IMG/VR virus record: IMGVR_UViG_3300013126_000075 | Span: 1 to 42,366 of that record | From: a virus | Strand: one strand, 5' to 3' | Length of the DNA: 42,366 bases | Shown here: piece after piece, positions 1 to 37,445 of the stretch | Position numbering within the stretch: the first letter of the stretch is position 1 | Layout of the letters: every line of letters begins with the position of its first letter | Translations under genes and position numbers: made by a program | Notes under the pieces: generated by a model | What the model saw: only the letters and a program-made list of their open reading frames with translations | The model's database searches: none | Told to the model about the DNA's origin: nothing

Positions 1-176
1 CAGAGCCAGCACCAGCGGCTAAAGGTTTCGGTAAGAAAGCAGCTGCTGCCCCAGCTGCACAGGCAGCACCAGTAGAGAAAGAAGTAGAAGCAGCACCAGC
101 TGATGTACCATCTGCTACTTCACTGGCTGATGAAATCGCTGCACTGGTAGGTTCAGTAGGTGCTGATGATGCCTAA
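1..176 (+). CDS. Partial Ala/Pro-rich protein, C-terminal end
   Basis: Only the last ~57 codons lie in the window (frame starting at base 3, stop TAA at 174-176). The tail is rich in Ala, Pro, Lys and Glu and ends in an acidic stretch (GADDA). Low-complexity linkers ending in an acidic tip are typical of phage ssDNA-binding proteins and of some recombination or nuclease subunits. The downstream primase-helicase makes a replication role plausible, but no domain is visible here. The next gene starts inside its last codons, so the two are translationally coupled. Function unassigned; the reading frame itself is well supported by composition and overlap. Confidence 0.6.
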   Translation, partial: EPAPAAKGFGKKAAAAPAAQAAPVEKEVEAAPADVPSATSLADEIAALVGSVGADDA

Positions 177-450
177 TCCAATCGACTTCGCTAAAGTCGA
201 GGCACTTCGTAAACACATGATGCTTCGCAGACAGGATATGTCCGAACTGCTTGGCGTCACGAGGATGACTTACTTCCGATGGGTACAGGGCAGGGTTCCT
301 GAGGATAAGTATCTCGATAAAATTAGGCTTGTCTTAAAAAATCTTTTAGCTATCATGGTAGAAGATAAGTGGCCTACTCCAGATGTTATTATTCTGGATG
401 CGGAAACTAGACGAGCCAAATTAGACGAAGTGCTAAAGCGGTTTAACTGA
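166..450 (+). CDS. Small helix-turn-helix DNA-binding protein
   Basis: About 94 residues. The segment from MLRRQDMSELLGVTRMTYF to about residue 45 reads as a compact HTH of the Cro/CI/XRE type: a helix with LRRQDMSELLGV, a turn, then a recognition helix with TRMTYFRWVQG. The C-terminal half (LDKIRLVLKNLLAIM...) is helical and could dimerise. ATG at 166 or 169 is chosen over an upstream GTG at 160, because it overlaps the stop of the preceding gene in the usual coupled arrangement with AGG just upstream. It lies directly before the primase-helicase and is a candidate repressor or activator for the GGTTAC palindromes at 35258 and 36686. That link is inference only. Confidence 0.75.
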   Translation: MMPNPIDFAKVEALRKHMMLRRQDMSELLGVTRMTYFRWVQGRVPEDKYLDKIRLVLKNLLAIMVEDKWPTPDVIILDAETRRAKLDEVLKRFN

Positions 451-493: not shown

Positions 494-3349
494 ATGAACA
501 CGCTGGATTTCTTTCGGCGGGTACTCCCATCTGAGGGGCTATACTGTATAGCCAGCTTTACCAAAGACCATCCTGCACCAAGGCATGGTTTTTTCAACTC
601 AGTGGATGAACTCGCAAAGGTGGCCTTAGCACTTGACGCTAGGGGAAACACAACATACTACGCCATAGCTGCATATAACGATAAAAAACGTAAGCAGGAA
701 TTTGTTAGTAGCATCCGTGTAATCGCAATGGATGTAGATTGTGGCGAGAACAAACCATATCCATCATATAAGGAAGGCCTTGTCGCACTGGGTAAATTCG
801 TAGCTGACTTCGGTATGCCGAAGCCTATGATTGTATTCTCAGGCGGTGGTCTGCACGTATATTGGATACTAGAAGAAGCACTGGACTACGACACGTGGAA
901 GCCATTGGCAGAAGCGATGAAGGCCTTGGCCTTAAACAGTGGCTTTATGATTGACCCTGCTGTTACTGGTGATGCGGCACGAATACTACGACCAGTCGGC
1001 ACTACGAACAACAAGAACGGCAACACAGTTAAGTTACTGGTAGATGCACCAAATGTACCGCTTATCTACTTACGTTCCATACTCGAACAACATAGAGCAA
1101 TTCCAAAGGCTCAACCGGTGAGCCAGAGGTCAGCATCCAGCAGTACGTTGTTGGATGCTTTAGCAGTTAAGGTGGAGTTCAATCCATCCAGACCAGACAA
1201 AATCTATAGTGCTTGCGCTCAAGTGCAATGGGCTGTGGACAACCAAGATAAAGTAGAAGAACCTACTTGGTATGGTGTGTTAGGTATCGCTGCGTACTGT
1301 GAGAACCCTGAGTATATAGCCATTGAGTGGAGTAAGAACCACCCCGGCTTTGACCAGCAGAATACCATCGACAAGATGGCTCACTGGAAAGAACAGGTAT
1401 CAGGACCGACAACCTGCAAACGCTTTGCTGAACTCAACTCTGGCCTGTGTAAAGGCTGTAAATTCAAAGACAAGATTACCAGCCCTGCTATTCTCGGTGT
1501 GACCTACGTTGAAGCTGAGTCAGAGGCTGCAAAGTTTGACCCGATTGCTTCCGATGTGCCAATGCCTAGAGCGTTCAAGCGTACCACGGCAGGTATCGTA
1601 ATCAAGATTGAGGACAATGAAATACCAGTATGTTCGTTCGACATATATCCAGTAGGGTATGGCAAGGATGAGAGTCTTGGGTATGAAGTTGTACGATATA
1701 TGTGGAACAGACCACACGTTGGATGGACTGAGTTGGTTTTACGACAGGCCCATCTGGTCGATAACAGTAGTGAGTTTGGCACTACGATTGCAGACCAAGG
1801 CATCGTGCTTGAGTCAGCATCTAAGACAAAGAATTTTCAAATGCTACTACGTTCATACATGGAAGAATTAAAACAGAGGCGTGGTCTTACCAACCTGTAT
1901 TCGTCTATGGGCTGGAAGGATGGCTACAGTCAATTCATCATCGGCAACACATTATTACGCCGCCTGCCAGATGGTACGGTATCACAGGAGTCGGTAAACC
2001 TAGCATCATCCATAGCTAAAGTTGGCGACCAGATGTATGGTACAGCTGGCTCACGTGATGAGTGGGTGAAGTTTACCAAGATACTTGAAACAGCCAAGAT
2101 GACACCGCACAAGTTCTTGCTCGGCTTTAGTTTTGCCACACCGCTGCTCAAGATGACAGGCATTAAAGGTCTGACGTTATCCATCTACGGTGAAACTGGT
2201 GCGGGTAAAACTCTGGGTCAGTTGATGATGCAGTCGGTATGGGGTAATCCAGACCAGCTACACTTCGGTGGCAAGTTCACGCAGAATAGTATGTTTGCAA
2301 GGCTGTCTACTCACGGCAATCTACCCATGACTATTGATGAAACCACGATGATGGATGCCGATGAAGTGGGTGATATGTTGTACTGGGTAACACAGGGTAA
2401 GGATAAAGGCAGGTTAGGTAGAGCCGCCGAAGAAAAAGCAGCACGTGAGTTCCAGACTACTGCTACATTATCCACAAACAAATCCATACAAAGTATGCTC
2501 TACGCTGGTGGCAGTGCGTCAGATGCACAGCTTGCACGTTTGCTTGAGTTCCATATGCCAGTGCATCCGCTATTGAGTAAGGGTACGGCAGTTGGTCGTC
2601 AGCTGTATATGTTCCTCATGCACAACTATGGATGGGCAGGTCCGGAGTTCATTAAGAACGTAATGGAACTAGGCGAGGATAGGGTTAAGGCTATGGTACA
2701 ACACGCTATCGCTGAGTTCCCAACTAGGTATGGGGTAATATTCTCAGGTAACGAACGCTTCTGGGAAGTAGGTGTAGTACTTGCAGACTTGGGTAATCGA
2801 CTGGCTAAAGACTTCGGTTTAATCCAGTATGAAATTGAAGACGCAACCGAGTGGGCACTAGAAGAACTTGTAGGTATTAAGAAAAACGCACTGGCTAACC
2901 GTGTTGATGCGTTCGATTTACTTGGCGAGTTTATCAACGAGCATATGGACTCTGCTATTACCGTGATGCACACCGATGGTCAGAAACCAATGAAGGATAG
3001 CAGTAGACCATACGTTGCTGAGATTACAGTCCGTTATGACCTGTACCGTAAGACGTTCGATGGCAAGTTCACCAGCGGTACGGTAATGATTGAGCGAACT
3101 AAACTCAGACGTTGGTTGGCTAAACGTGGTATTGACTACAAAGGATTTCTCAACGAGTTTGATGCTGAGAACATCAATGCTACACCTAAGTCACAGAAGG
3201 CATACTTCGGTAAAGATGTTGGTATTAAAATCCCACAGTGCTATGTGGTTGGTATAAACCTAAACCACCCACGACTACAAGGTATCTTGGATGATGCCGA
3301 GCAATCAGTAGGCGATTTAAGTTTAGGTCAGATGAAGGTAGTTAGTTAG
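494..3349 (+). CDS. Primase-helicase (AEP primase + DUF927-type ATPase)
   Basis: 951 residues. The N-terminal domain carries archaeo-eukaryotic primase motifs: DVD at 80-82 (metal binding), SGGGLHVYW at 116-124 and DAARILRPVGTTNNK at 160-174. A PriCT-like linker follows with a probable zinc site formed by C241, C308, C319 and C322. The C-terminal part (~residues 360-950) is a DUF927-type helicase with Walker A GETGAGKT (566-573) and Walker B PMTIDE (611-616). The protein probably primes and unwinds phage DNA as one polypeptide, like primase-helicases of plasmids and phages. GGGGATAAT precedes the ATG. Its stop overlaps the stop of the convergent giant virion gene by 8 bases. Domain identification is confident; exact biochemical activity is by family. 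Confidence 0.88.
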   Translation: MNTLDFFRRVLPSEGLYCIASFTKDHPAPRHGFFNSVDELAKVALALDARGNTTYYAIAAYNDKKRKQEFVSSIRVIAMDVDCGENKPYPSYKEGLVALGKFVADFGMPKPMIVFSGGGLHVYWILEEALDYDTWKPLAEAMKALALNSGFMIDPAVTGDAARILRPVGTTNNKNGNTVKLLVDAPNVPLIYLRSILEQHRAIPKAQPVSQRSASSSTLLDALAVKVEFNPSRPDKIYSACAQVQWAVDNQDKVEEPTWYGVLGIAAYCENPEYIAIEWSKNHPGFDQQNTIDKMAHWKEQVSGPTTCKRFAELNSGLCKGCKFKDKITSPAILGVTYVEAESEAAKFDPIASDVPMPRAFKRTTAGIVIKIEDNEIPVCSFDIYPVGYGKDESLGYEVVRYMWNRPHVGWTELVLRQAHLVDNSSEFGTTIADQGIVLESASKTKNFQMLLRSYMEELKQRRGLTNLYSSMGWKDGYSQFIIGNTLLRRLPDGTVSQESVNLASSIAKVGDQMYGTAGSRDEWVKFTKILETAKMTPHKFLLGFSFATPLLKMTGIKGLTLSIYGETGAGKTLGQLMMQSVWGNPDQLHFGGKFTQNSMFARLSTHGNLPMTIDETTMMDADEVGDMLYWVTQGKDKGRLGRAAEEKAAREFQTTATLSTNKSIQSMLYAGGSASDAQLARLLEFHMPVHPLLSKGTAVGRQLYMFLMHNYGWAGPEFIKNVMELGEDRVKAMVQHAIAEFPTRYGVIFSGNERFWEVGVVLADLGNRLAKDFGLIQYEIEDATEWALEELVGIKKNALANRVDAFDLLGEFINEHMDSAITVMHTDGQKPMKDSSRPYVAEITVRYDLYRKTFDGKFTSGTVMIERTKLRRWLAKRGIDYKGFLNEFDAENINATPKSQKAYFGKDVGIKIPQCYVVGINLNHPRLQGILDDAEQSVGDLSLGQMKVVS

Positions 3350-6300
3350 AAATCTCGAACCCGTACAAGGCGGCTAGTTCTTCGGCCTCTTGTCTACCTG
3401 CTCTGGCAGATGACTTGAGTGCCCTAGCTGCCAGTGGTTTAGTAGCTTCTTTATACGCTCTGTTCACACCACCACTGAAATTTTTAATCTCAAGGCGTGT
3501 ACCTTTAACATCCTCATTCCAATCACGTACATAAGCTTGGACATTTGCAAGGCGGTCTTGGTCGCCATTGATTCTTGCTGCAACAGCCTCACGTATAGCT
3601 TCACTTCTAATCATCTGACCATAGCGTTGCTCTTGGTCATCGGCCATCATCCAATCCATCTGCACCTGAGCACGACTTGGGTAGAAGCCCACTGCCTTAC
3701 CGATAACCTCCCAAGCAGTTACATCTTGAGAAACCACATAGCCTTTACTATCTAGGATTGCACCTGTATTGGCGTACTTCCAAGCTTCAGTGGCGTTCTT
3801 AATAGCCCTAGCAGGGAAGTCTGTAAGTATCTTGCTGAATGGTTGTCTGCCTGTAATCACTGAAGGTATAGTTCCGGCTGCCCAGTCAAACGCACCAATC
3901 ATAAATGAGGTTGGCGCACCTGCCAAGTTCTCTACTTCACGCAATTTTTCCTGTGCAGAAGCAGATGGTTTAAACAAGGCAGTGCCCGGTACAATATCGC
4001 CAAGTCCCAAACGATTTGAGAATGACCATCCAGTGGTAGCATCCAGTAAACCACGCAACATGACAGGGCTAAGTGCCGCACCAAGTTCCGGGCCAAAGGC
4101 ATCACGAGTTAATCGGGCAAATTCTTTCTCTACTGAGCCGGACTGCAAGCCCATGCGCTGCATTAAACCGTCAATAATATCCAGTAAGTCGTCAGCACCC
4201 GGCAGGCCACGCAAACCAGACAGTAAAATCAGTGAACCCAGCATGATAATCTTACCGTTGCGGTCCATATTTTTGAGCAGCTGTAACATAATGATTGGAT
4301 ACTGCTTGTACATATAGACGAATGACATCAGGCCGCCACGGAAGAACGCTGGTCGGTTGTACTGTGAGTAGTCACCTTGTGTAGCATCGAGGGCTTTGTC
4401 AGCAGCTATACGTGCAGCATCGTCAGCCTGACCGGGGGTTTTGCCAGCAGCAATCTGGCGTTCATACTCACCACGGTAGGCAGCAAGCACAGTTACACGG
4501 CGGTTGAACTGCTCTGAATAACTGAATGGGAACATCCATGTCTGAACAAATTTCTGGAAGGTTGGGTTACCCATAAAGCCTTTGCGCCCGCGCACTGTAC
4601 CGGTTAGGGCGTTGAACTGGGCAGCATCCAGACGCTGTTCTTCCGTCAGGTCTTTTAAGAATCGTAACTCAGCACCAGTGATACCATCTTTGTTCTCATT
4701 AGCACCAGTGCGCTCAAGTTCTGCAAGCTGGGCGTCCAAGAAGTCCACATTGATGTACTTAGGATTGGCGGCAGCGATAGCAAACTTGGACAGTAATGCA
4801 CCAGCACGACCAGCACCAAGGCCAAGGCCAAAGTTATTCTCTGGGTTATATGATGACAAGTAAGCCCATGAGTTGGTAGGCAGTGACAGCATCTGTGTAA
4901 TACCTGTGGCGATAGAACCACCAAGCTGGGCAACCGCAGCCCAAGTACGTGCGCTCAGTGAGAACTGGTTGTTATTCCAGAAGTCATCAGCAAACACAAT
5001 GTCCCCAGTAGAGTCTTGCCAATCAAGCTGTGATTTGGCGCGTTCTTTATACCAGTTACCGCGCAGTACGTTAGTGTCGCCGACTTTCTCATTGGCTTTT
5101 TCGAAGTAGTATTTTTCTTGGTAGTACTCACGTGCTGCCAGTTCCTTGGCTGGGCCAGTAGCAGCTTCCCACTTGGCTTTAAGTTCTGCCAGTCGGTCAC
5201 GGTTACCAAACCAGTTGTTGTTATCTTCCAGTACCCCGTCAAACTGGTGGCGGAATGTCTTGTTAGCTGCAACATAAGCCTGCTGCTCAAGGAAGGCGGA
5301 TGAACTACGGACAACATCTTTGTCCCAGCCCGGTACACCAGCACGTTGTAAGTTAGCACGAGCCCTAGAGTTTTGTGCGGTAACTTTCTTAATCAGAATC
5401 TCACGGTCAGCTACTGGCATCTGTACACCCAAGCGACTAAGAGCATACATCACATCATCATAGTGCATGATGTCTACCAATGCAGGTGTAGTTTCTACAT
5501 CACTGACGATGGCTTTCAAGTACACTGAAACCACGCGGTTGTTGGCATCTCGCATGGTGTATTCGCCAGTAAGTAAGCCGTTTAACTCCTCAGCGTATCC
5601 AATAGACTCGTCTTTTTTCTCAGTCATAAACAGCGGTAAGGAATCCTGCTGCCCTTGATGCAGCTTAACTGGCTCCTCGTTACCATCAGCGTCAATGGTG
5701 TATGCTTGCACACGAACTTGGAACTTGCCTCGGCGAGATAGGGGGGCATAGCCACCAGCAATACTGCGCTTGGCATATAGTGAGTCATCGTTCAATGATA
5801 TGGTGAACGTACTGCGTTCCTCCATGGCGTAAGCCACAGGCCAGATTGATGAATCGGTGATGGCGTCTGTATCAGGGTCAATCTTTACACGCAGCTTATC
5901 CCGTAGCCCAATAACCAAAGTCTTAACTTCGTCAGGGGTGTAGTTAGGCAGCTTGGTTGCGAAATCATTAAGTGCGTTGTCGTTGTAGAATGACCGAGCA
6001 AAGCGCATTTCAGCATAATCCACAGCGTCAGCTTGAGATACTTCGTTCATCTTGAATCGGTTGTTCTCGTAGGACGAGCCTTCCATAGCGATACGGTCAT
6101 GCTCATCAGATACAGCAGTAATAAAGCGGCGTTCCGCCTCAGTCAAAGCTTTACTAAAGGCACGGTCAATACCACGATTAAGTACACGTTCTTGCTCGTA
6201 CATGGCTCCGTCATACTTGGCAGCCAATACATCCATCTGGCTTTCGTTGATAGCTTCACGGAACTGTAAGTACATCTTGTACTGGATACTATCTTCGGTC

Positions 6301-9300
6301 ATATCTTTAACCCATGCGAAGTCAGCCATGTCTTTGGTGTTCACATAGTTAGGTGCGCTGTATGTGTTGCTGTCGATTTGTTTCTTATATGACAGCTTGG
6401 TGCTACGCAGCATGGAATCGAATTTATCTTCCGTCTTGTCGTATGTAGCCTGCAATGAGGTCTTTACCTTGGTATCTTTGGCTGTGTCAATCTTACGCTG
6501 GATACGGTCAAGGTCACGTTTCTTGCGTGCTTCTATTACTGCAACTTCTTGGTCACGCTCAGACTCCAGCTGGGCTTTATACTCAGCTGTCATTGGTTTC
6601 TCAGTGTAACCCGTCTGAACATCAAAGCCTTTTTTGAAGTCGGCTACAGATAAAGTACCAGCTTTAGACAGTGACTCAAACGCATCTGGGTTCATAACGA
6701 TTTGACCCAGTTCAGTGGAGTATGCGATAGGGGCTTCAAACTTAGATTGCAGTTGTGAATCAGAGAACTGGTTACCTTTCAGTAGTGAACCAAGAGCCAG
6801 TAGTTGTCCAGCCTGTTGTGATTCCATAGGTTCAGGACCGTCACCGAACATCAGGAACTTAGCTTCGTGTGCAAGCTGTGTTAGCTTAGAGTATTTTGTC
6901 TTGAGTTTCTGCTGCATCTCACCTTTACGTTGGGTAAGACTGAAAACCAGTGCCGCACCCTTACTATCACGAGCCATGTCATCTTGAGTACGCAGAAGCC
7001 CAAAGAAGTTCTTCATGGTGTCCTTGGCGTTTACTTTTGTACCGTCATATTTACGGCGTAGGTCTGCAACTTTGGCATCGTTATTGTTCAACCAGTTCAT
7101 AATGCCTTCTAAACCACCGGTTGAAGTGACGTTTTGATTCATGGCGTTCATGGCAGCAGTTTGCTGGCCTTGTGGCGCGAGTTGGGCAAATCTTAATACC
7201 TCAACATCAGACCGGTCGAGTTCTCGCATCGTAGACGCTTCCTGCAAGAGAGTTTTTAGGTTGACCTCTGAACGACCCACACCTTGACGTACATACTTGC
7301 GTGATAGACTTACTAAGTAGCGAGCAGCATCATCGTTGAACTTGAATCCTAATTTATTCAGCTGGTTTTTAAGCCATGTCCAGAATCGCATCATGGTTGA
7401 TGAGTCGATTGCAGCTGCGCGGTCAGACAAAACTTCTTCCACGGCTTCCAAGAACGGAATATTCTGTACTTCTGACAGAACTACTGCTGCGTTGTTAACC
7501 TGCACATCAGAGTCAGCGATTGACTGTAAGATTTTATTAAGCTGTGCGTCACTGAACAAACCACGGAAACCTACGTGCCCCAGAATCTCATGAGCCATGA
7601 TAAAGTTGGCGTGTTTCTCACCATTGATATTGTCAGCAAACAGAACGACAGTGTTTCCCCATGCCATACCAGCGGCGTTGACAGCCTCGAAGTCCCCGGC
7701 CTTACGAGCGGCGGCAGCTTCTCTAAACAACTTGGGATTTGTCTTACGCATATCATCCAGATTCTGGAACACATGAACCTTAGGTTTACGAGCCAGCTTG
7801 GATACGAACTTAGTTGCCATCAGGCGCAATGGACCTGCTTTCATTGGTTGGCTTGGCTTTTCATCAGCGCGGTAGTAGTTAGCTAGGTCACCATACACGT
7901 TATCATCCTCACGGATGCCTGACTCTTGCTGGAATTTAAGTTCCAGTGCAGCACGCTGGTCTTCCTCTGCATACTCCAGTTCAAGGTCGCGCAATACTTT
8001 ACGCGATTCTGCATGAACCTTAGCAAATTCTTCACGCGACATCTTGGCTTCTTCCACGCTGGACAGAACATACCTACTTGTGCCCGGCTTCTGCACTACG
8101 ATTGGTTTACCATCTTTAAAGAAATCCTCGATAGACCCGCGCTCGCCGACTACGAACGCAGTATCCTCAACTTGTTTATACAAAGCTTCCGCCTTGCGAG
8201 CTAAGGCTTTACGGTCAAATTCACCTTCTCGGTTATTGATAATAGTAGCAAGTTGTATTGCTGCACGGTCAATTTCCTCAACGGTATCATCAGCTTCCTT
8301 AACTGCCAGCGTAACTTCCTCATCTTTCTTAGCAGATACACGCACACCAATCTTAGGGTCGTTGAGCAAATTGTAATCGTTCAGCAGGGTGTACAGGCGT
8401 GAGCGAGGGTTGATGCTTGGCATCGTGATTGCAAACGCACGTAAGGCTTTAGTGAACTCAGCCACAGGGATAGGCTCTGCACCGAACAGGAACTCATTGG
8501 CTGTCTTGAATAACTTAGTAGCTTGGTTTGTTTCAGTAACGAATACATCCACGATGTCGTTCATTGCAACTTCGTACTCTTTAGGTGAGCCGGTAGTTTC
8601 CACAGTTTCAATAGCAGCCTCAAGTGCTTGTTGCGCGGCTAATGTTTCAGTTGATGCCTCACCTGACTTCTTCTCCTTCTCCTTCTCCTGTGCTGGAGAT
8701 GTGACCTGAGCGACTAACGATGCTAAAGATGTTTGTGGTACTTGAGCCGGTGCAGCTTGAGCTTTAGGTGCTTTAAGTCGTTGCTCACCTACCGGTGCGG
8801 CAGGTGTAGCCTTAGTCGTTTCAACTTTAGATTCTTTCTTCAGTGCTGCTTTGCCAGTTGGTTTAGGTGGTGTCGGCTCTGGTGGTTTAATACCACCGAT
8901 ACGGTCAGCCTCAGCCATCGAAGCTTTATTGGCTTCGACTAAATCAGTCCACTCTTTACGCTGTGCATCAGATAGCTTTTCCCATGTCGGTGCTTTGGGG
9001 TCGCGCTTGTCACGCCACTGAGTACGGGCTTCACGCTCCACGGACAACCGTGCTGCCTTTGCCTGCTGAGCAGCCTTTACATCTTGTAAACCTTTTCCTT
9101 GCTTTTCCTGCGTGGCTTTCTCAGTCAGTTTCTTGACAGCCTTAGATACTGTAACCGCATTGACTGGTCTACCTGTTGGTGGAATCTGACTGCCACCAAC
9201 CTCTGGAATACTACGGACTGGGCTCTTAACACCGGCAGAACGCAAGGCAGCTATAGTGGGTTCACCATCTTGGGTAAACAGTGACGTTTGTTTGGTGCGG

Positions 9301-11366
9301 CGCAGGTCAACTTTAGGTGCAGCCATGACGACAGGTGCGCCCTGTTGTTGGGGTGCAGGAATCCCACGGCGAATACGCTCACGCATTGATGGTTTAGGTG
9401 CTTGACCTCTACCAAACAGTTGTAGTTGCTGCGGGTTCGGCGCACGAGTTTCACGCATAGGTAGCTGAGCTACGGGTTCAGGCGCAGGTTGTGCCAAGTC
9501 TAACTGACGTTGGTTCTGTGCCACGATTGCAAGGCGATTGAGTTCTGCCTGACGTTGCTGTTCCTGTGCAAGTTGTTGCTGCTCGATAGCCTTAGCCACC
9601 TCTGCCTGCTGCATAGCAAGTTGCATCTGCGAAACCGGCGCATTGACTGGTGTAGGTGCAGGCGGCGGAGGCGCAAACTGTAGCTGTCCTTGGCGGGGGT
9701 CAGTATTAGGTTGCTCTCCTAGGTATGGTATCCCTAATGGATTCTCAAGAGTACTGCGTTGCTGTAGCTCAGCAATGGTCGCACCTTCAGGTCCAAAGAT
9801 GTCGAGCACACCCTGTTGTCCAAACTGACCCGGTGCAACTTCACCTGAGTAAATTGTATCACTAGGGCGTGATGGTCTGGTTGTACCATCAGGGGCAGTA
9901 ATCATGTCAGGGCGACCCATCATGCCGCCGGTAGTGACAGGGCCTTGAGGTACACCCGCTGGTGGTTCAGTAATAGTAAGTGCAGTGCTTTGTGGTGCAG
10001 GCTCTGGTGATTGCTCTGGGTTTAGTAAGTTAGTAGGCTGGTCACCCACTGGAGTCTTACCCTTACGCAGGTTAGCGATACCACCTAATGGACTACCTAC
10101 ACCAAAGCCTGCGGCAAATGCTTCGAGAAAACGCTTCTGCGCTTCAGGGCTAGTCAAGTCCTGACCAGATAACCCCATGACAAGAGCTTCCTGCCCAAGT
10201 TCAGTAGCACCCTCAAGTGGCCCACCAACGGCAGCTCCAACAACACCGCGTTTGAGTAATTCCCCAGCACGCTTAGCACCTGTACCTAACGCAGTAGCAC
10301 CTTGGATGGATGCCAAGTCTGTACCCGTACCCTTGATACCGCCAAAGATGCGGGATGCTAAAACAAATTCCGGTAAAGTTTCCAGTGCGGCGTATGGAAT
10401 AGACCCCAGCAGCGCACTAAGTCTAGCCCCTGCATCATCAGCAGTTGCCCCTTGCTCTCGTTGCTCACCGTAAATATCTGCCGCACCTGTAGCAATATTA
10501 CTACCATAAGACGCAGCCAATGCCCCGGCAGTACCAGCGGCATTACGCAACAATTTGGTTTCTACTTCAGTAAGGGCTTCACCAGCGGCTTTCTTCTTGG
10601 CAGCTGCCATGATGGATTGCTTAACAGCAGACTTACCTAGGATACCAGCAGCACCAGCATAAAGACCAGCGAGCGGGCCACCAGCGGCAGTACCAGCACC
10701 GAAGCCTGCAAGCCCAACAGCCATTGACTCAAGCAGGTTAGGACCTTGCTGCGCCAAGTTAGCCACGAACCAATCGACAGCATCGCCGCCTGACTCGATA
10801 TTTGAGAACTCACGTTGGAACGGCGTAGTCTTGTTGAGGTCTTTGATTTGCTGGTCGACTATAGATTGACCAGTTTGCTCAGCACCAAGTAACTGCATAC
10901 CCCTGCCCGCAAGCAGTTGCATATTGTCTACGCCAATACCAAAGTTCTTCTTAGCTAGACGACCAAGGCTAGGGTTTCGGATAGACTCTAGGAATTGCCC
11001 ATATGCGTTCTGGTCTATCGGAGTCCAGTTACCAGTGGTAGGTAAGCCAACAGATGGATAGGAAAGGTACTGCTCAGACTGTAAAGCAGTAGTAGCGTCA
11101 TCAGCGTCAAAAGTAATACCGTTAACATACAGTTTGTTTTCCGTAGGATTAAAGGCAATAGCCGGAGCCTGCTTCAACTCCGGCATTGTGAACTGACTTT
11201 GCTTAACGATTTGCTGCCCGACAGCAGCCATGTCTGCTAAAGATGGGGCTAACCCATTCAACCCTATGTCTGACGTAGGGCTGTTAATCGCATATGGATT
11301 AGCCTCAGGCCCTAGGTTAGATTTCGCCAGAAACGGGTCAGCAAACGAAAGACCTTCTTTAGCCAT
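3342..11366 (-). CDS. Giant virion/ejection polypeptide (PLxRFG and LPD38-like domains)
   Basis: 2674 residues, the last gene of the late block. Residues ~200-400 contain Gly/Ala-rich hydrophobic helices that could insert into membrane, ending in an APLEGATE-type segment. Residues ~440-1000 are Pro/Gln/Lys-rich low-complexity linker. AHEILGH (H1259, E1260, H1264) resembles a zincin helix but with HExxxH spacing. PLSRRGKF at 1875-1882 matches the PLxRFG signature of giant phage polyproteins. Residues ~2200-2450 (WMFPFSYSEQFNRR..., TQGDYSQYNRP..., hydrophobic IIMLGSLILLSG) resemble the large polyvalent protein-associated domain LPD38. By position it corresponds to T7 gp16, an internal protein ejected with the DNA. 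It could also act on host targets after ejection. Domain names are from memory of the families. Confidence 0.8.
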   Translation of the reverse strand: MAKEGLSFADPFLAKSNLGPEANPYAINSPTSDIGLNGLAPSLADMAAVGQQIVKQSQFTMPELKQAPAIAFNPTENKLYVNGITFDADDATTALQSEQYLSYPSVGLPTTGNWTPIDQNAYGQFLESIRNPSLGRLAKKNFGIGVDNMQLLAGRGMQLLGAEQTGQSIVDQQIKDLNKTTPFQREFSNIESGGDAVDWFVANLAQQGPNLLESMAVGLAGFGAGTAAGGPLAGLYAGAAGILGKSAVKQSIMAAAKKKAAGEALTEVETKLLRNAAGTAGALAASYGSNIATGAADIYGEQREQGATADDAGARLSALLGSIPYAALETLPEFVLASRIFGGIKGTGTDLASIQGATALGTGAKRAGELLKRGVVGAAVGGPLEGATELGQEALVMGLSGQDLTSPEAQKRFLEAFAAGFGVGSPLGGIANLRKGKTPVGDQPTNLLNPEQSPEPAPQSTALTITEPPAGVPQGPVTTGGMMGRPDMITAPDGTTRPSRPSDTIYSGEVAPGQFGQQGVLDIFGPEGATIAELQQRSTLENPLGIPYLGEQPNTDPRQGQLQFAPPPPAPTPVNAPVSQMQLAMQQAEVAKAIEQQQLAQEQQRQAELNRLAIVAQNQRQLDLAQPAPEPVAQLPMRETRAPNPQQLQLFGRGQAPKPSMRERIRRGIPAPQQQGAPVVMAAPKVDLRRTKQTSLFTQDGEPTIAALRSAGVKSPVRSIPEVGGSQIPPTGRPVNAVTVSKAVKKLTEKATQEKQGKGLQDVKAAQQAKAARLSVEREARTQWRDKRDPKAPTWEKLSDAQRKEWTDLVEANKASMAEADRIGGIKPPEPTPPKPTGKAALKKESKVETTKATPAAPVGEQRLKAPKAQAAPAQVPQTSLASLVAQVTSPAQEKEKEKKSGEASTETLAAQQALEAAIETVETTGSPKEYEVAMNDIVDVFVTETNQATKLFKTANEFLFGAEPIPVAEFTKALRAFAITMPSINPRSRLYTLLNDYNLLNDPKIGVRVSAKKDEEVTLAVKEADDTVEEIDRAAIQLATIINNREGEFDRKALARKAEALYKQVEDTAFVVGERGSIEDFFKDGKPIVVQKPGTSRYVLSSVEEAKMSREEFAKVHAESRKVLRDLELEYAEEDQRAALELKFQQESGIREDDNVYGDLANYYRADEKPSQPMKAGPLRLMATKFVSKLARKPKVHVFQNLDDMRKTNPKLFREAAAARKAGDFEAVNAAGMAWGNTVVLFADNINGEKHANFIMAHEILGHVGFRGLFSDAQLNKILQSIADSDVQVNNAAVVLSEVQNIPFLEAVEEVLSDRAAAIDSSTMMRFWTWLKNQLNKLGFKFNDDAARYLVSLSRKYVRQGVGRSEVNLKTLLQEASTMRELDRSDVEVLRFAQLAPQGQQTAAMNAMNQNVTSTGGLEGIMNWLNNNDAKVADLRRKYDGTKVNAKDTMKNFFGLLRTQDDMARDSKGAALVFSLTQRKGEMQQKLKTKYSKLTQLAHEAKFLMFGDGPEPMESQQAGQLLALGSLLKGNQFSDSQLQSKFEAPIAYSTELGQIVMNPDAFESLSKAGTLSVADFKKGFDVQTGYTEKPMTAEYKAQLESERDQEVAVIEARKKRDLDRIQRKIDTAKDTKVKTSLQATYDKTEDKFDSMLRSTKLSYKKQIDSNTYSAPNYVNTKDMADFAWVKDMTEDSIQYKMYLQFREAINESQMDVLAAKYDGAMYEQERVLNRGIDRAFSKALTEAERRFITAVSDEHDRIAMEGSSYENNRFKMNEVSQADAVDYAEMRFARSFYNDNALNDFATKLPNYTPDEVKTLVIGLRDKLRVKIDPDTDAITDSSIWPVAYAMEERSTFTISLNDDSLYAKRSIAGGYAPLSRRGKFQVRVQAYTIDADGNEEPVKLHQGQQDSLPLFMTEKKDESIGYAEELNGLLTGEYTMRDANNRVVSVYLKAIVSDVETTPALVDIMHYDDVMYALSRLGVQMPVADREILIKKVTAQNSRARANLQRAGVPGWDKDVVRSSSAFLEQQAYVAANKTFRHQFDGVLEDNNNWFGNRDRLAELKAKWEAATGPAKELAAREYYQEKYYFEKANEKVGDTNVLRGNWYKERAKSQLDWQDSTGDIVFADDFWNNNQFSLSARTWAAVAQLGGSIATGITQMLSLPTNSWAYLSSYNPENNFGLGLGAGRAGALLSKFAIAAANPKYINVDFLDAQLAELERTGANENKDGITGAELRFLKDLTEEQRLDAAQFNALTGTVRGRKGFMGNPTFQKFVQTWMFPFSYSEQFNRRVTVLAAYRGEYERQIAAGKTPGQADDAARIAADKALDATQGDYSQYNRPAFFRGGLMSFVYMYKQYPIIMLQLLKNMDRNGKIIMLGSLILLSGLRGLPGADDLLDIIDGLMQRMGLQSGSVEKEFARLTRDAFGPELGAALSPVMLRGLLDATTGWSFSNRLGLGDIVPGTALFKPSASAQEKLREVENLAGAPTSFMIGAFDWAAGTIPSVITGRQPFSKILTDFPARAIKNATEAWKYANTGAILDSKGYVVSQDVTAWEVIGKAVGFYPSRAQVQMDWMMADDQEQRYGQMIRSEAIREAVAARINGDQDRLANVQAYVRDWNEDVKGTRLEIKNFSGGVNRAYKEATKPLAARALKSSARAGRQEAEELAALYGFEISN

Positions 11367-32395: not shown

Positions 32396-33784
32396 TCAAG
32401 TCCATCCTGTAGATGCAACACGTTTTATATCCCTACGTTGTGGAACTCTACTACCTTCTCCTGTTACGTTTAAATGTAACATTAGGTACTGAAGGGCCTC
32501 GGCTACGTGTGAGTGTTTGTTCTTATCTATCTCACCATCACCTCTGGGCTTGTAGCGGTAGCCGCCCATCATGGCAGCTTTAAGCTGTGTGCAGCCGGGG
32601 TCAAGCAGGAACGCCGGGTCACCGTCCACCTGCCGCATCAGGAAGTCATCGACTGCGTTAATCCGCGCCGACACACTGTTCGTCTTGGCCGGTATGACCT
32701 TGAACCCTTCCGCCTTGATAATATCCACAGCACTGCGCTCGTCAGTCTGCGCCCGCTGGATACCTGCCGGGTCAGTCACTATGAGTATGGGAGCCCCGCC
32801 AAACCGCTCGTAGAGCATCGGCTTGAGCAGTGACCGCACGAAGCGTTGCACACCCATGTCAAAGCTGACACATTCACCGAGTATCAGTGCCCGACCACGT
32901 GGGTCCTGCTGCCCGATAACCGCCGCTGGCGTAAGCCCCAAGTCCATCCCTACGATGATAGGCCGTATGCCGTTGTTGATGAAGCGTAACCGCTCCCGTG
33001 CCATGTGGTAGTCAGTCCTGAAGTATTTGTACACCGGCATACCTGCTGAGGACAGCCCGTACTCACCATCAATGTAAACCCGGATGTACTCCTCGCTGCG
33101 GCCCTGTGTGTCGTAGTATCCATCTGGTAGGTTCTCCACGTTCTCCGCCATTACGCTTCGACCTGACGGTTGCTTGAACACAGCCCAGCCGTTGTTGTTC
33201 GGTGACACCCCATCCTTGGGGTTAAGCCCTTCCATCATGTAGTACCACCATCCGTCCATAGTCGGTGGGTTGGTATCACCCCACATCCCATGCCATGTAG
33301 GGCCCCCGTCTTTTGCTGAGGGATACCGCCCAATACGTTTTGATAATGCATCGACAATGTCTGGGTGGATATCCCGACACTCGTTCATCCATGCAAATGT
33401 AACTTCTAAGGAGTTTAGGTTAGCCACATCATCAGCATCATCTAAAGCCCGGAACATTACTTCGCACTCTACATCGCCTACTTTTAGGAAGTATGTTTTT
33501 GTAGTTCTCATATACTGTCCGCACTGCCCCGGCGGGAACCAATCATTCCAAGTTTTGATTGTAGTATCCTGCAACTGCCGTGCAGTTTCCCGTATAACCA
33601 AACACCTAGATTTTCTAATACCTTGCTCATTAGGCTTTTGCATTGACGCTCGCCGTACAACTTCAAAACAACAAGTTACAGACTTACCCGAACCTACCGG
33701 ACCCATAAGAACACGCATCTTGGCGTTGCTCTCCATAAACTTCCGCTGCACAGCCGCTGGCGTGTAGTTAATCTCTAATGCCAT
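32396..33784 (-). CDS. Terminase large subunit
   Basis: 462 residues from the ATG at 33784, chosen because AAGGAG lies at ideal spacing upstream; a longer frame to 33847 lacks such support. The N-terminal ATPase has Walker A GPVGSGKS at 28-35 and a Walker B-like segment VTFAWMNECRD. The C-terminal nuclease has VGMDLGLTPA and ILIVTDPAG, with metal-binding aspartates. It packages DNA into the prohead through the portal and cuts concatemers. The gene is separated from TerS by two small genes and an opposite-strand HNH gene. Confidence 0.88.
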   Translation of the reverse strand: MALEINYTPAAVQRKFMESNAKMRVLMGPVGSGKSVTCCFEVVRRASMQKPNEQGIRKSRCLVIRETARQLQDTTIKTWNDWFPPGQCGQYMRTTKTYFLKVGDVECEVMFRALDDADDVANLNSLEVTFAWMNECRDIHPDIVDALSKRIGRYPSAKDGGPTWHGMWGDTNPPTMDGWWYYMMEGLNPKDGVSPNNNGWAVFKQPSGRSVMAENVENLPDGYYDTQGRSEEYIRVYIDGEYGLSSAGMPVYKYFRTDYHMARERLRFINNGIRPIIVGMDLGLTPAAVIGQQDPRGRALILGECVSFDMGVQRFVRSLLKPMLYERFGGAPILIVTDPAGIQRAQTDERSAVDIIKAEGFKVIPAKTNSVSARINAVDDFLMRQVDGDPAFLLDPGCTQLKAAMMGGYRYKPRGDGEIDKNKHSHVAEALQYLMLHLNVTGEGSRVPQRRDIKRVASTGWT

Positions 33785-33851
33785 TTTACTCTCCTTGACC
33801 AACTCCATATGGTCTATTATACTTGTACCTACACCACATGGAACCACTACT

Positions 33852-34548: not shown

Positions 34549-34746
34549 TCAGGCCACCTCAAGCAGGGTTATGACGAACTCCCGCCCTCGTTTCTTGTGT
34601 TTGTGTATGCGGGTGTGGTACGAAATACTGTTTTCCTTGAGCATTAACTCAAGATTGTGGGCCTCTACGGAGCTTGCGATGCGGGCAACCCGCGCTCCAT
34701 CGTGACTCTGCTCGAATTTACTCAGAATACTCTGCATCGGCGACAT
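34549..34746 (-). CDS. Small protein downstream of TerS
   Basis: 65 residues starting MSPMQSILSKFEQSHDGARVARIASSVEAHNLELMLKEN and ending GREFVITLLEVA. GGAGG lies 6 bases before the ATG, inside the TerS gene; the two genes overlap by 29 bases in different frames. Predicted alpha/beta with a basic middle (HKHKKRGRE). Not recognised. Kept as real because of strong ribosome binding site and coupling to the GTG-started gene that follows directly. Confidence 0.6.
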   Translation of the reverse strand: MSPMQSILSKFEQSHDGARVARIASSVEAHNLELMLKENSISYHTRIHKHKKRGREFVITLLEVA

Positions 34747-35212
34747 CTTTTTCCTCCACTTGCTGCGGTTCGTGCTCGATTATGGCAGTTTCTACCTGCT
34801 GCCCACCCAGATTTATGGTGATTTTAACGCCACCAGCGTTGTTGCCGCCATCATTGTCAGTATTCTTCGGCTCCAGTCCCGCCCATTTGACCGTTGACTT
34901 GATTAAATCTGCCTTCACAGCGGCGGATACAGACGGGTCGTGTATCAATAACCAAGATGTTGTCAGTAGTTCTTCCGATTGGGCCCGTGCTTTTAGCCGG
35001 AAGGTCAGCCCTTTCTCTCGGATTTCATCGCGGTAGGACTCCACGCGCTTGAGGAAGACTGGGTCTTGGTTGTAGCCAAGGATGTCTTGGGTGGTTATGT
35101 TGTGCCTGACGGTTACCTCGGTCAGGGTTTCGCCACTTCCTTCGAGTGTGAGTGCGATGTCAAACGCTAGGCGGTCTGACCATTTGGTGTGATGTAACGG
35201 TAATGTGTCCAT
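34718..35212 (-). CDS. Terminase small subunit-like protein
   Basis: 164 residues from ATG at 35212 (MDTLPLHHTKWSDRLAFDIAL); a longer open frame upstream lacks a plausible start. A helical DNA-binding-type N-terminus with TTQDILGYNQDPVFLKRV, a helical middle (EKGLTFRLKARAQSEELLTTSWLLIHD) and an acidic C-terminus (EHEPQQVEEKDVADAEYSE) match small terminases placed before TerL. It would recognise the packaging site and regulate TerL. No Shine-Dalgarno site is visible and the predicted transcription start is only ~4 bases upstream, so translation may be leaderless. Confidence 0.7.
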   Translation of the reverse strand: MDTLPLHHTKWSDRLAFDIALTLEGSGETLTEVTVRHNITTQDILGYNQDPVFLKRVESYRDEIREKGLTFRLKARAQSEELLTTSWLLIHDPSVSAAVKADLIKSTVKWAGLEPKNTDNDGGNNAGGVKITINLGGQQVETAIIEHEPQQVEEKDVADAEYSE

Positions 35213-35222
35213 AGTGAGAGTC

Positions 35223-35251
35223 AGCTTAGTGGAGGCGGGGAAGTTTGTCAA
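35223..35251 (-). promoter_or_regulatory. Late promoter for the terminase transcript
   Basis: On the minus strand TTGACA (35251-35246) is a perfect -35; a 17-base spacer leads to TAAGCT (35228-35223), a -10 with the key T1, A2 and T6. The predicted start is close to the TerS ATG. A palindrome at 35258-35275 lies just upstream, in the position of an activator or repressor site. Confidence 0.6.
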
Positions 35252-35257
35252 GTAAAT

Positions 35258-35275
35258 GGTTACGTGAGTGTAACC
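35258..35275. promoter_or_regulatory. Operator-like palindrome GGTTAC-N6-GTAACC
   Basis: A perfect 6+6 inverted repeat with a 6-base spacer, seven bases upstream of the -35 of the late promoter. The same arrangement (one mismatch) recurs at 36686-36703, and the half-site recurs many times between 36367 and 37017. It looks like the binding site of a dimeric regulator, activator or repressor not determined. Confidence 0.65.
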
Positions 35276-35325
35276 GATGGTTTTATGAGGTCTTATTTTA
35301 AGCGGTTTACTTATACAGGGGGGGC

Positions 35326-35483: not shown

Positions 35484-35494
35484 GTTCTTTAACA
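35484..35494 (+). promoter_or_regulatory. boxA-like antitermination element
   Basis: GTTCTTTAACA matches the rRNA-operon boxA core GCTCTTTAACA at 10 of 11 positions. It lies 19 bases before the ATG of the first plus-strand gene, between a small dyad (GTGCT-N5-AGCAC, 35459-35473) and the ribosome binding site TAGGAG. It could recruit Nus factors to the early transcript, or be chance. Confidence 0.4.
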
Positions 35495-35512
35495 ACAATT
35501 AGGAGATTTAAA

Positions 35513-35776
35513 ATGGCTCAACAAGCTACTGTTAAGAGGTCTATCGCCCCTGTTACTTTCACTATCGAAGTAACGGCCACGAGGGTCAATGAAAACGGTA
35601 CATTCTCTGGCATCACTGCCAAGATTGTTAAACAACCGAAAGGTTGCGAGTTCATGACCAGTGTACCACCAATGGCAGGCGGTGCGGTTTACTTCAAGAC
35701 ACAATCGCTGGAAGGCATCACGCTAGTCGAAGGTGATAGCCAGAAAGCACCAGCCGAGAAGAAAAAATTGTTCTAA
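35513..35776 (+). CDS. Small beta-rich protein, paralogue A
   Basis: 87 residues. The sequence (KRSIAPVTFTIEVTATRVNENGTFSG..., SVPPMAGGAVYFKTQSLEGITLVEGD) is strongly beta-patterned with a short charged tail ending KKKLF. It is clearly paralogous to the protein at 37176-37445: the blocks KxSIxPVTFxxEVTATxVNENGTFSG, PPxAGGAxYxK and LxGxxxVEG are shared. TAGGAG precedes its ATG and a terminator follows. Both copies flank the repeat-rich noncoding region. Not recognised; a small nucleic-acid-binding fold or structural role is possible. Confidence 0.75.
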   Translation: MAQQATVKRSIAPVTFTIEVTATRVNENGTFSGITAKIVKQPKGCEFMTSVPPMAGGAVYFKTQSLEGITLVEGDSQKAPAEKKKLF

Positions 35777-35839: not shown

Positions 35840-36016
35840 ATGAAAGCTAGAAAACCACGTAAGTATGAACCAATGCGGTACATAGTCAAATGGATTGAAG
35901 GCAATATGATGTACTTCAGAGCGTTCAAACGCGATTCATCTGCCATGAAGTTTCAAGATTACCTGATTGAAGAATTAGGTATTCCAATGGTAAATGTTCG
36001 AGTAACTTTAAAATAA
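35840..36016 (+). CDS. Small basic protein
   Basis: 58 residues: MKARKPRKYEPMRYIVKWIEGNMMYFRAFKRDSSAMKFQDY, ending NVRVTLK. Basic N-terminus, then a beta/alpha pattern. AGGAG lies nine bases upstream of the ATG. It is followed by an 8-bp GAAA-loop hairpin. Unknown function; basic charge and size allow nucleic-acid binding. The clear ribosome binding site and spacing between terminator and hairpin support expression. Confidence 0.65.
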   Translation: MKARKPRKYEPMRYIVKWIEGNMMYFRAFKRDSSAMKFQDYLIEELGIPMVNVRVTLK

Positions 36017-36021
36017 CGAGG

Positions 36022-36041
36022 CAGGCAGGGAAACCTGCCTG
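36022..36041 (+). other. GAAA tetraloop hairpin
   Basis: A perfect 8-bp stem CAGGCAGG / CCTGCCTG with GAAA loop, 5 bases after a stop codon, without a T-run. Its stem sequence is almost that of the terminator at 35787, suggesting a common origin. Confidence 0.6.
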
Positions 36042-36047
36042 AATGAT

Positions 36048-36191
36048 ATGAATAAATTTATGATTATGTACACCACAGCAATACACACAACAGACTCAAC
36101 AATCGTGAAGGGATACTTCGGCTTACTGAAATTCAGGTTCAAGCTGTGGGTATGCAAGTGTTACGACATCAAGGTAATACCAATCGAGTAG
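36048..36191 (+). CDS. Possible 47-residue protein
   Basis: MNKFMIMYTTAIHTTDSTIVKGYFGLLKFRFKLWVCKCYD...IPIE. Basic and aromatic in its second half, with CKC. No Shine-Dalgarno site; the ATG is 6 bases after a stable hairpin. A good terminator begins 8 bases after the stop, which marks a gene end. Weakly supported, function unknown. Confidence 0.4.
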   Translation: MNKFMIMYTTAIHTTDSTIVKGYFGLLKFRFKLWVCKCYDIKVIPIE

Positions 36192-36198
36192 GAAACAG

Positions 36199-36224
36199 CC
36201 CGGCGAAAGCCGGGTTTTATTTTG
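36199..36224 (+). terminator. Rho-independent terminator
   Basis: Stem CCCGGC / GCCGGG with GAAA loop (36199-36214), followed by TTTTATTTTG. Closes the small-gene cluster before the gene-free region. Confidence 0.8.
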
Positions 36225-36446
36225 TCTGTCGTTTATGTATAGATTTTGCTGTTTTCTTATCAGGTTATGGATGACGTGTATAGTTTTACTGTTTTTGTGT
36301 GTATAAAACAAACCATACGCCGGGGGGTGCAGGCATCAAATAGCGACACATCTGACAGTATCGCGCGGGGCGGTTACGTTTTTTAGCGGTAAAAGTGGGG
36401 CGGTTACATGGCAAAACGTAACATTACACACAAAACTATGTAACCG

Positions 36447-36502
36447 GTTACATTGATTGCTTAAAAAATAGACAAAAGTTACATTGATTGCTTAAAAAAT
36501 AG
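36447..36502. repeat. 25-bp direct repeat, two copies
   Basis: The segment starting GTTACATTGATTGCTTAAAA is repeated exactly at 36447-36471 and 36478-36502 (31-base offset, about three helical turns). The first copy begins inside the palindrome at 36439-36452. Confidence 0.8.
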
Positions 36503-36622
36503 GCAATAATCTAAGAAAATAATCTAAATAATCTAAAAATTAGGTTAGTGGTTACTCACATTAGATTATTTTGGCAAATGTAACCACCGCGCCAGTATTG
36601 GGTTTCAGCCATATATATATAT

Positions 36623-36778
36623 AATAATCTAAATAATCTAAATAATCTATGGTTTTTTAACACACACCCGGTAGTAAAATGATGAGGTTACATGAATGTA
36701 ACTGCGTAACCATCTACCTATCTAACTCCCCCCTGTCTTACACTTTTATGCGTAGATTATTAGATTATTTAGATTATT
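36623..36778. repeat. Triple AATAATCTAA blocks in inverted orientation
   Basis: Three AATAATCTAA-type units with a 9-base period (36623-36650) face three inverted units (36752-36778), giving a near-perfect ~27-bp inverted repeat with ~100 bases between. The spacer contains GGTTAC-N6-GTAACT at 36686-36703. The outer flanks also carry GGGTTTCAG (36600-36608) and CTGAAACCC (36783-36791). Confidence 0.75.
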
Positions 36779-37109
36779 GCCTCTGAAACCCAAGCCCAGC
36801 AAGGAGGTTACAATAATCTAAATTTCATGTAACCGATACCTCAAGTAAAAAAGTTTAGATTTTTGCAGATTATTCTAGTACTTTTTGTGTAACCGGTTAC
36901 ATTATGTTATGGCAATAACCCTTGTAGCTTACTCCGTGGTTACAAACCCACTTCGTGGTGTTACACGACAACCTTCATTTACAAATCAATGCGGTTACAT
37001 AGCTTAAAAACGTAACCAAATACATTCAAATACAATTACAAAGTCAGGCGACCTCGCTAAGTTGTTGATTTTTAAACTTTTTGTTCGGATTTCGGTTCGT
37101 GCTAATCTG

Positions 37110-37175: not shown

Positions 37176-37445
37176 ATGGCTATTACAGCTACGTTGAAGA
37201 AGTCTATCAAACCAGTTACATTTTACCTTGAAGTTACAGCTACCAAAGTCAATGAGAACGGTACATTCAGTGGCTTAACTGTGCAGAAAGTATCATCATC
37301 CGTTAAGTCCAATGAAACAATCAGGGCTAGTATACCACCTCAAGCTGGTGGTGCTATGTACCTCAAATGCGATGACCTTAAAGGCCTTGAGTTCGTAGAA
37401 GGTACACTGACTGGTGCTACCGTTGAGCAGAAGGAACTGTTTTAA
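37176..37445 (+). CDS. Small beta-rich protein, paralogue B
   Basis: 89 residues from ATG 37176 (MAITATLKKSIKPVTFYLEV), chosen over an upstream start at 37062 because AGGAG lies 8-12 bases before it and because the paralogue begins at the same point. It shares the core blocks of the protein at 35513-35776 and ends similarly (EQKELF). Beta-rich, no catalytic motif. First gene of the right-hand early operon. The pair of paralogues on either side of the iteron-like region suggests a functional link to it, which is inference. Confidence 0.75.
   Translation: MAITATLKKSIKPVTFYLEVTATKVNENGTFSGLTVQKVSSSVKSNETIRASIPPQAGGAMYLKCDDLKGLEFVEGTLTGATVEQKELF

Follow-up and report, generated by a model that had tools for sequence, protein, structure and literature searches.

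The stoperators of cluster A mycobacteriophages are many short sites served by one helix-turn-helix (HTH) protein and, in the available text of the sources, their motif varies with the repressor (PMC6550527, PMC9283540). In the present study, we describe a phage locus for which a similar arrangement is proposed. The cluster A sites are spread over the whole genome, as far as the accessible part of the report goes (PMC6550527), whereas here 12 of the 13 intergenic sites lie in one array or in a candidate operator, in both orientations, and are not dispersed outside one control region. Unlike the genes of the cluster A repressors, the HTH gene considered here adjoins a primase-helicase gene. The Rep helicases of SaPI and SCC elements, of the DUF927 or Primase_Cterm type, offer a second comparison, as they also combine a DUF927 replication protein with an origin-like cluster of repeats, according to the accessible part of the source (PMC7581432). 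Their iterons are described there as adjoining the rep gene (PMC7581432), whereas the array of the nearest relative of our phage lies ~17 kb from its primase gene (G020, array at ~23.4-24.0 kb and primase at 40.9-43.7 kb), and a separate HTH protein is proposed here as the reader of the half-sites. The orf56/orf904 operon of pRN1 likewise joins a small DNA-binding repressor to a replication protein; its origin, in the available portion of the report, is a stem-loop and has no array of repressor half-sites, and host domain and protein families differ from those of our phage (PMC4234260). Recognition helices of lambdoid repressors have also been modelled, as the accessible part of PMC3317979 describes. 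The XRE repressors P22 c2 and 434 (2r1j, 3jxb) share with the protein proposed here the HTH fold, a tryptophan in the recognition helix and an 18-bp palindromic operator, but the sequence match is weak (E about 0.4), the C-terminal repressor domain is absent here, and the phage has an array of multiple half-sites.

The window analysed is the whole of IMG/VR record IMGVR_UViG_3300013126_000075 (42,366 bases), a fragment of a tailed phage genome. The terminase large subunit gene (TerL, 32396-33847, minus strand) matched phrog_2 (E=3.4e-29), and a portal gene matched SU10_portal. The gene at 34718-35212 (minus strand, 164 aa, ATG at 35212) was named putative terminase small subunit from its position only; its one family match, phrog_36773, is weak and has no assigned function. 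Its start at 35212 is backed by the relatives, in which similarity begins at that ATG; a longer reading frame, to 35431, is not conserved. The first rightward gene (35513-35776, plus strand, 87 aa), for which the family search gave no match, resembles by eye a second small rightward gene (37176-37445, plus strand). At the other end of the window, the gene for the 94-aa HTH protein (166-450, plus strand) is followed by that for a primase-helicase with a DUF927 domain (494-3349, plus strand; PF06048, E=9.9e-26). A 2674-aa reading frame occupies 3342-11366; over its last 1001 residues it matches large proteins without an assigned function, and there is also a weak match to an antirestriction family of DarB-like type. 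No RNA family reached the gathering threshold within the window. Relatives were collected as 80 loci via TerL and 72 via the primase, with more added via two diverged primases and further stretches. The nearest of them is a 54.7-kb contig, with which the window ends were placed by position comparison; this suggests that ~12 kb would be missing between window ends 42366 and 1. The phages collection held no near match to the window, and Pseudomonas phage Rollin is the isolate closest to it by TerL (43%) as well as by primase (27%). The gene before the primase of Rollin encodes a small protein of a different kind, part of which looks HTH-like by eye. In a limited literature search, no paper was seen to describe this phage group from its title or the start of its abstract.

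The sequence GGTTACGTGAGTGTAACC at 35258-35275, in the gap that separates the terminase-side gene from those reading rightward, is an 18-bp candidate operator made of two inverted half-sites. It has 0 mismatches to GGTTAC-N6-GTAACC, so that the perfect palindrome reported in the initial annotation is confirmed, and the genome-wide search proposed there returned it as the sole exact copy in 42,366 bases; by arithmetic, the exact 12-base pattern is expected ~0.003 times. With up to two mismatches there were 4 matches against 1.75 expected, and 11 of 100 shuffled sequences reached 4. As this is only mildly above chance, a second 6-6-6 copy is by itself weak evidence. The palindrome is perfect in all three phages of what we call the GGTTACA type, each time 45 bases from the start codon. 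Next to it lies TTGACA (35246-35251, minus strand), the -35 of the putative terminase small-subunit promoter, with a possible weak -10, TAAGCT, at 35223-35228 on the same strand. The palindrome is upstream of this -35, as had been annotated, at a distance of 6 bases and not 7, and the gap is the same in the three phages of the clade. Of the 61 distinct upstream regions of relatives, 56 have TTGACA in the equivalent position, ~34-39 bases ahead of the start codon; a position so near the ATG suggests that the terminase mRNA, in the window (35212-35251) and in the relatives, may be nearly leaderless. In the nearest relative, a gene for an HNH endonuclease (L001, 6053-6541; phrog_99, E=2.4e-49) lies directly beside the palindrome.

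Farther to the right, the non-coding stretch 36372-37017 holds an origin-like array of 15 GGTTAC or GTAACC half-sites in both orientations and at irregular spacing. For the region 36340-37040, in which no convincing gene was found, 0.56 half-sites were expected, and the maximum of 1000 first-order Markov simulations was 4. The longer form, GGTTACA or TGTAACC, occurs 20 times in the window and 13 times between genes according to the gene list, once in the operator and 11 times in the array. A second 6-6-6 site, GGTTACATGAATGTAACT, with one mismatch, is present at 36686-36703 with a further GTAACC at 36706; it had been placed at the centre of inverted triplets, and lies close to that centre but not exactly on it. 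Such a pair (at most one mismatch) is kept in the array of two of the three GGTTACA-type phages and is missing from the third. The triplets consist of the 9-bp iteron AATAATCTA, at 36623-36649 on the plus strand and inverted at 36753-36778 on the minus strand (TAGATTATT when read on the plus strand), and belong to 12 copies of AATAATCT or AGATTATT in 36340-37040. The G+C content of 36001-37000, 0.368, is the lowest of the 1-kb windows. The stretch thus has the clustered short repeats and the AT-rich, non-coding sequence of an iteron-type origin, and the array, the iterons and the AT-rich stretch together most likely form the replication origin; the turn in GC skew is not independent evidence of it because it coincides with the change of gene direction. 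In Rollin (L266), a repeat-rich stretch with an N gap (AAAAGGTAG, TAAATTAA) lies at ~200-1400, upstream of the structural genes, and may be an analogous array.

The comparison of relatives shows that a change of the operator goes along with a change of the array. The counts of array types and of the border element described below exclude loci whose upstream sequence was too short. Among 70 contigs, 60 have one or more exact copies of AACTTKACA in the array, for which 0.00-0.09 copies are expected per array window, three carry GGTTACA, one carries TTKACACTTT and six have none or one stray copy. The GGTTACA arrays, those of this phage and its two near kin, hold 11, 10 and 9 copies, the TTKACACTTT array holds 19, and AACTTKACA is absent from all four. 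On the terminase side, 52 of the 61 distinct regions have a site of one of the three types no more than 170 bp from the putative terminase small-subunit gene (0.36 expected overall): 47 with AACTTTACA, three with the GGTTAC palindrome, one with TTKACACTTT and one with a single string that fits both AACTTTACA and TTKACACTTT, against chance expectations over the 61 regions of 0.24, 0.02 and 0.10 for AACTTTACA, the palindrome and TTKACACTTT, respectively. In three of the nine regions without an exact site (G004, G007 and G010), it is displaced or one mismatch off. The operator and array types agree in the three GGTTACA phages and in the TTKACACTTT phage; G055, G065, L054 and L076, whose operators are unlike their arrays, are discordant or ambiguous. 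These findings support a common sequence-specific reader of operator and repeats.

The reading that we prefer, with a probability of roughly 60%, is that the palindrome and the array half-sites are bound by the phage's own 94-aa HTH protein and that the terminase-side copy is part of a control element of the rightward, presumably early, genes. The protein would bind the palindrome as two inverted half-sites and would also occupy the ~15 half-sites at 36372-37017, and the terminase-side site would control the rightward unit, its own gene included. In the small clade of this phage, the site would have become a full palindrome, which also happens to be only 6 bases away from the late -35. Here the protein probably influences transcription in both of the diverging units, and a direct effect on the late one is possible. 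Repression by occupancy is our guess for the sign of regulation.

The assignment to the rightward genes comes from a conserved block at 35288-35310 (plus strand; consensus GGGTCTTGSTTTAAGMGGTTTAC, 3 mismatches here), which reads away from the terminase gene; after it come a G-run, CCATGT and, up to ~35400, a stretch resembling a hairpin. In the relatives, GGGTCTTGSTTTAAGMGGTTTAC leads into a TATA-like stretch with a G-run, CCATGT and a C-run behind it. A canonical -35 is absent from the block, so that a promoter within it is uncertain. The leader ahead of the first rightward gene contains GTTCTTTAACAA (35484-35495, plus strand), which resembles the boxA of rRNA operons; a loose pattern for it matched in 58 of 71 relatives, and this suggests antitermination of early transcripts. 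With identical upstream sequences collapsed, 45 of the 61 distinct regions fell within the match limits for a count of spacing. The half-site is 12-13 bp from the block in 44 of these 45 regions, whereas anything from 9 to 907 bp separates it from the terminase TTGACA. Since the former spacing is fixed and the latter varies, the site belongs mainly to the rightward element.

These distances also bear on the idea that the late terminase promoter has the palindrome as its dedicated operator, through which an activator or repressor couples replication to late transcription. The 6-base gap to TTGACA throughout the clade speaks for it, but a constant position relative to the late promoter is confined to those three phages, and inserted reading frames can part the site from the terminase gene. 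In G004 (L161, 4264-5399), reading frames of 254 and 196 aa are inserted between the terminase gene and the block, and half-site and block are found together ~680 bp from TTGACA, with the half-site inverted and 7 bp from the block. It counts against our own reading, on the other hand, that the single half-site of the relatives has the orientation opposite to that of the nearer half-site of the palindrome. A 10.5-bp phasing of the distances between half-site and TTGACA would also favour a late operator, but it is marginal (p about 0.014-0.023; R=0.39 over 28 groups, a value reached by 70 of 5000 jittered sets). When only distances of at most 62 were taken, it rose to R=0.51 (p about 0.009) with a cut-off that was picked after seeing the data, and a scan of periods 8-14, with statistics that ignore relatedness, gave 46/1500 and 82/1500 and a best period of 12.2. 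This weak helical phasing is a possible sign of some role of the site in late transcription, and we treat it as a lead only. Altogether, we consider a dedicated late operator doubtful. The initial annotation had proposed a regulator shared by the two regions and acting on the terminase promoter; its common reader is supported by the joint change of operator and array, and its operator of the terminase promoter is at odds with the spread of 9-907 bp. The observation of the palindrome was real and is better supported than a sequence-only reading could tell, and the late-promoter part of the idea is mostly not supported.

The 94-aa protein is, in our inference, the best candidate for the reader. 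It scored 24.9 bits against PF01381 (HTH_3, cut-off 23), and the protein of the near relative L081 scored 28.6 bits. Its AlphaFold2 model (mean pLDDT 92) has an XRE fold with helices at residues 22-29 and 33-40, the second being the putative recognition helix with Arg38. The closest PDB chains belong to XRE-type regulators and antitoxins, at moderate Z scores (for Aca10, 6.9 with an rmsd of 1.7 over 56 residues). A Foldseek search with the HTH model gave nothing at E<=0.001, and among viral models one clear match was obtained (A0A516LI83, TM 0.94). Residue 38 aligns without a gap to position 37 of P22 c2, which we take to be base-contacting. The gene stands beside the primase in 67 of 72 primase loci, and 68 sequences, including that of the window, could be compared. 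Their recognition helix is mostly [ST]RMTY[YH]GW; the three GGTTACA phages have TRMTY[FY]RW and the TTKACACTTT phage has SRQNYYNW, and it is in exactly the two lineages with changed sites that the helix changes. Helix and array are both known in 35 contigs: of the 29 with Gly38, 28 carry exact AACTTKACA, as do both of those with Leu38 or Asn38 (otherwise SRMTYY-W), and the four with the two changed helices all lack it. In the primase tree, the three GGTTACA phages fall within a group supported at 100/100 that also holds eight Gly38 phages, and the TTKACACTTT phage is on a separate, long branch. Because they sit apart, we count two independent shifts, and the link between protein and site rests on these two only. 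Other proteins diverged on the same branches, so co-variation alone cannot single out the HTH protein. The position 38 variants Ser (G001), Leu (G055) and Asn (G065) come with no clear change of site, and the irregular spacing of the array half-sites is unusual for a dimeric XRE repressor.

Other conceivable readers are the primase-helicase, a host factor or an HTH protein particular to the clade. In the available part of the source, the DUF927-type Rep helicases of staphylococcal islands recognise iterons by a C-terminal domain (PMC7581432), but the AATAATCTA iterons would probably be the better target for the primase-helicase of our phage. The nearest relative has two further HTH-like genes, of 95 and 127 aa, whose products could be clade-specific binders; the 95-aa protein, which is HTH-like by eye and had no Pfam match, occurs among the loci compared only in two near relatives. 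As general readers both were rejected, since they were found only in two contigs of relatives and in one, respectively, and arrays are present in phages with neither protein detectable. A host factor fails to explain why targets are specific to a lineage. We therefore regard a reader other than the 94-aa protein as unlikely.

It may also be asked whether all the sites are parts of the origin, the terminase-side copy being a secondary initiation element or a packaging-related one with no role in transcription. In support of this, the G-run, CCATGT and C-run of the block could form a structure, and a second conserved element, CCATACGYCGGGGG, here CCATACGCCGGGGG at 36313-36326 (plus strand), borders the array on its left in 70 of 70 relatives examined and fits no model considered here. 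However, the terminase-side site lies between divergent transcription units and beside promoter-like sequence, and RNAalifold gave no consensus structure for the block over 38 sequences (0.0). A role in replication only is, in our opinion, quite unlikely. The second iteron family (window 36505-36820) drifts among the relatives, from AATAATCTA to ACAATCTGT, AACTATCTA and CTAGTTAGA, and this suggests that another DNA-binding protein, perhaps the primase-helicase with its DUF927 domain, is co-evolving as well. In a more distant relative, L268, a contig of a metagenome-assembled genome labelled Paraglaciecola, the CCATACGTCGGGGG element and a similar block are kept upstream of TerL, and the array is of another type, with TTGACAC and CGATATT repeats (by eye). 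The HTH profile search of this Paraglaciecola-labelled genome found no homologue.

A further proposal, which we find distinctly improbable, is that the HTH protein is a switch titrated by replication, whose set of sites is retuned together with its recognition helix. The protein would hold the divergent early and late control region through the operator; multiplying copies of the origin, with ~15 half-sites each, would soak it up, and the late genes would be freed in step with the genome copy number. The replacement of Gly38 by Arg38 here and a separate change in another lineage would be the retuning. If so, related phages would have mutually blind control circuits. An intrinsic terminator or RNA hairpin is hardly credible and was discarded, since the palindrome, which a consensus scan flags as terminator-like on both strands, changes jointly with the array and corresponds to the non-palindromic AACTTTACA in 48 of the 61 regions of relatives.

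Under the preferred reading, in which the 94-aa protein reads both operator and array, these uncultured phages would provide a natural series in which a small DNA-binding protein and its many proposed targets have changed together, at least twice. The likely specificity residue is thereby exposed, and the co-evolution of regulator and site may be tested with a 94-aa protein and short oligonucleotides. Furthermore, the replication gene pair of HTH protein and primase-helicase would be linked to the control region of early and late genes, which makes the timing of late expression in this phage group testable.
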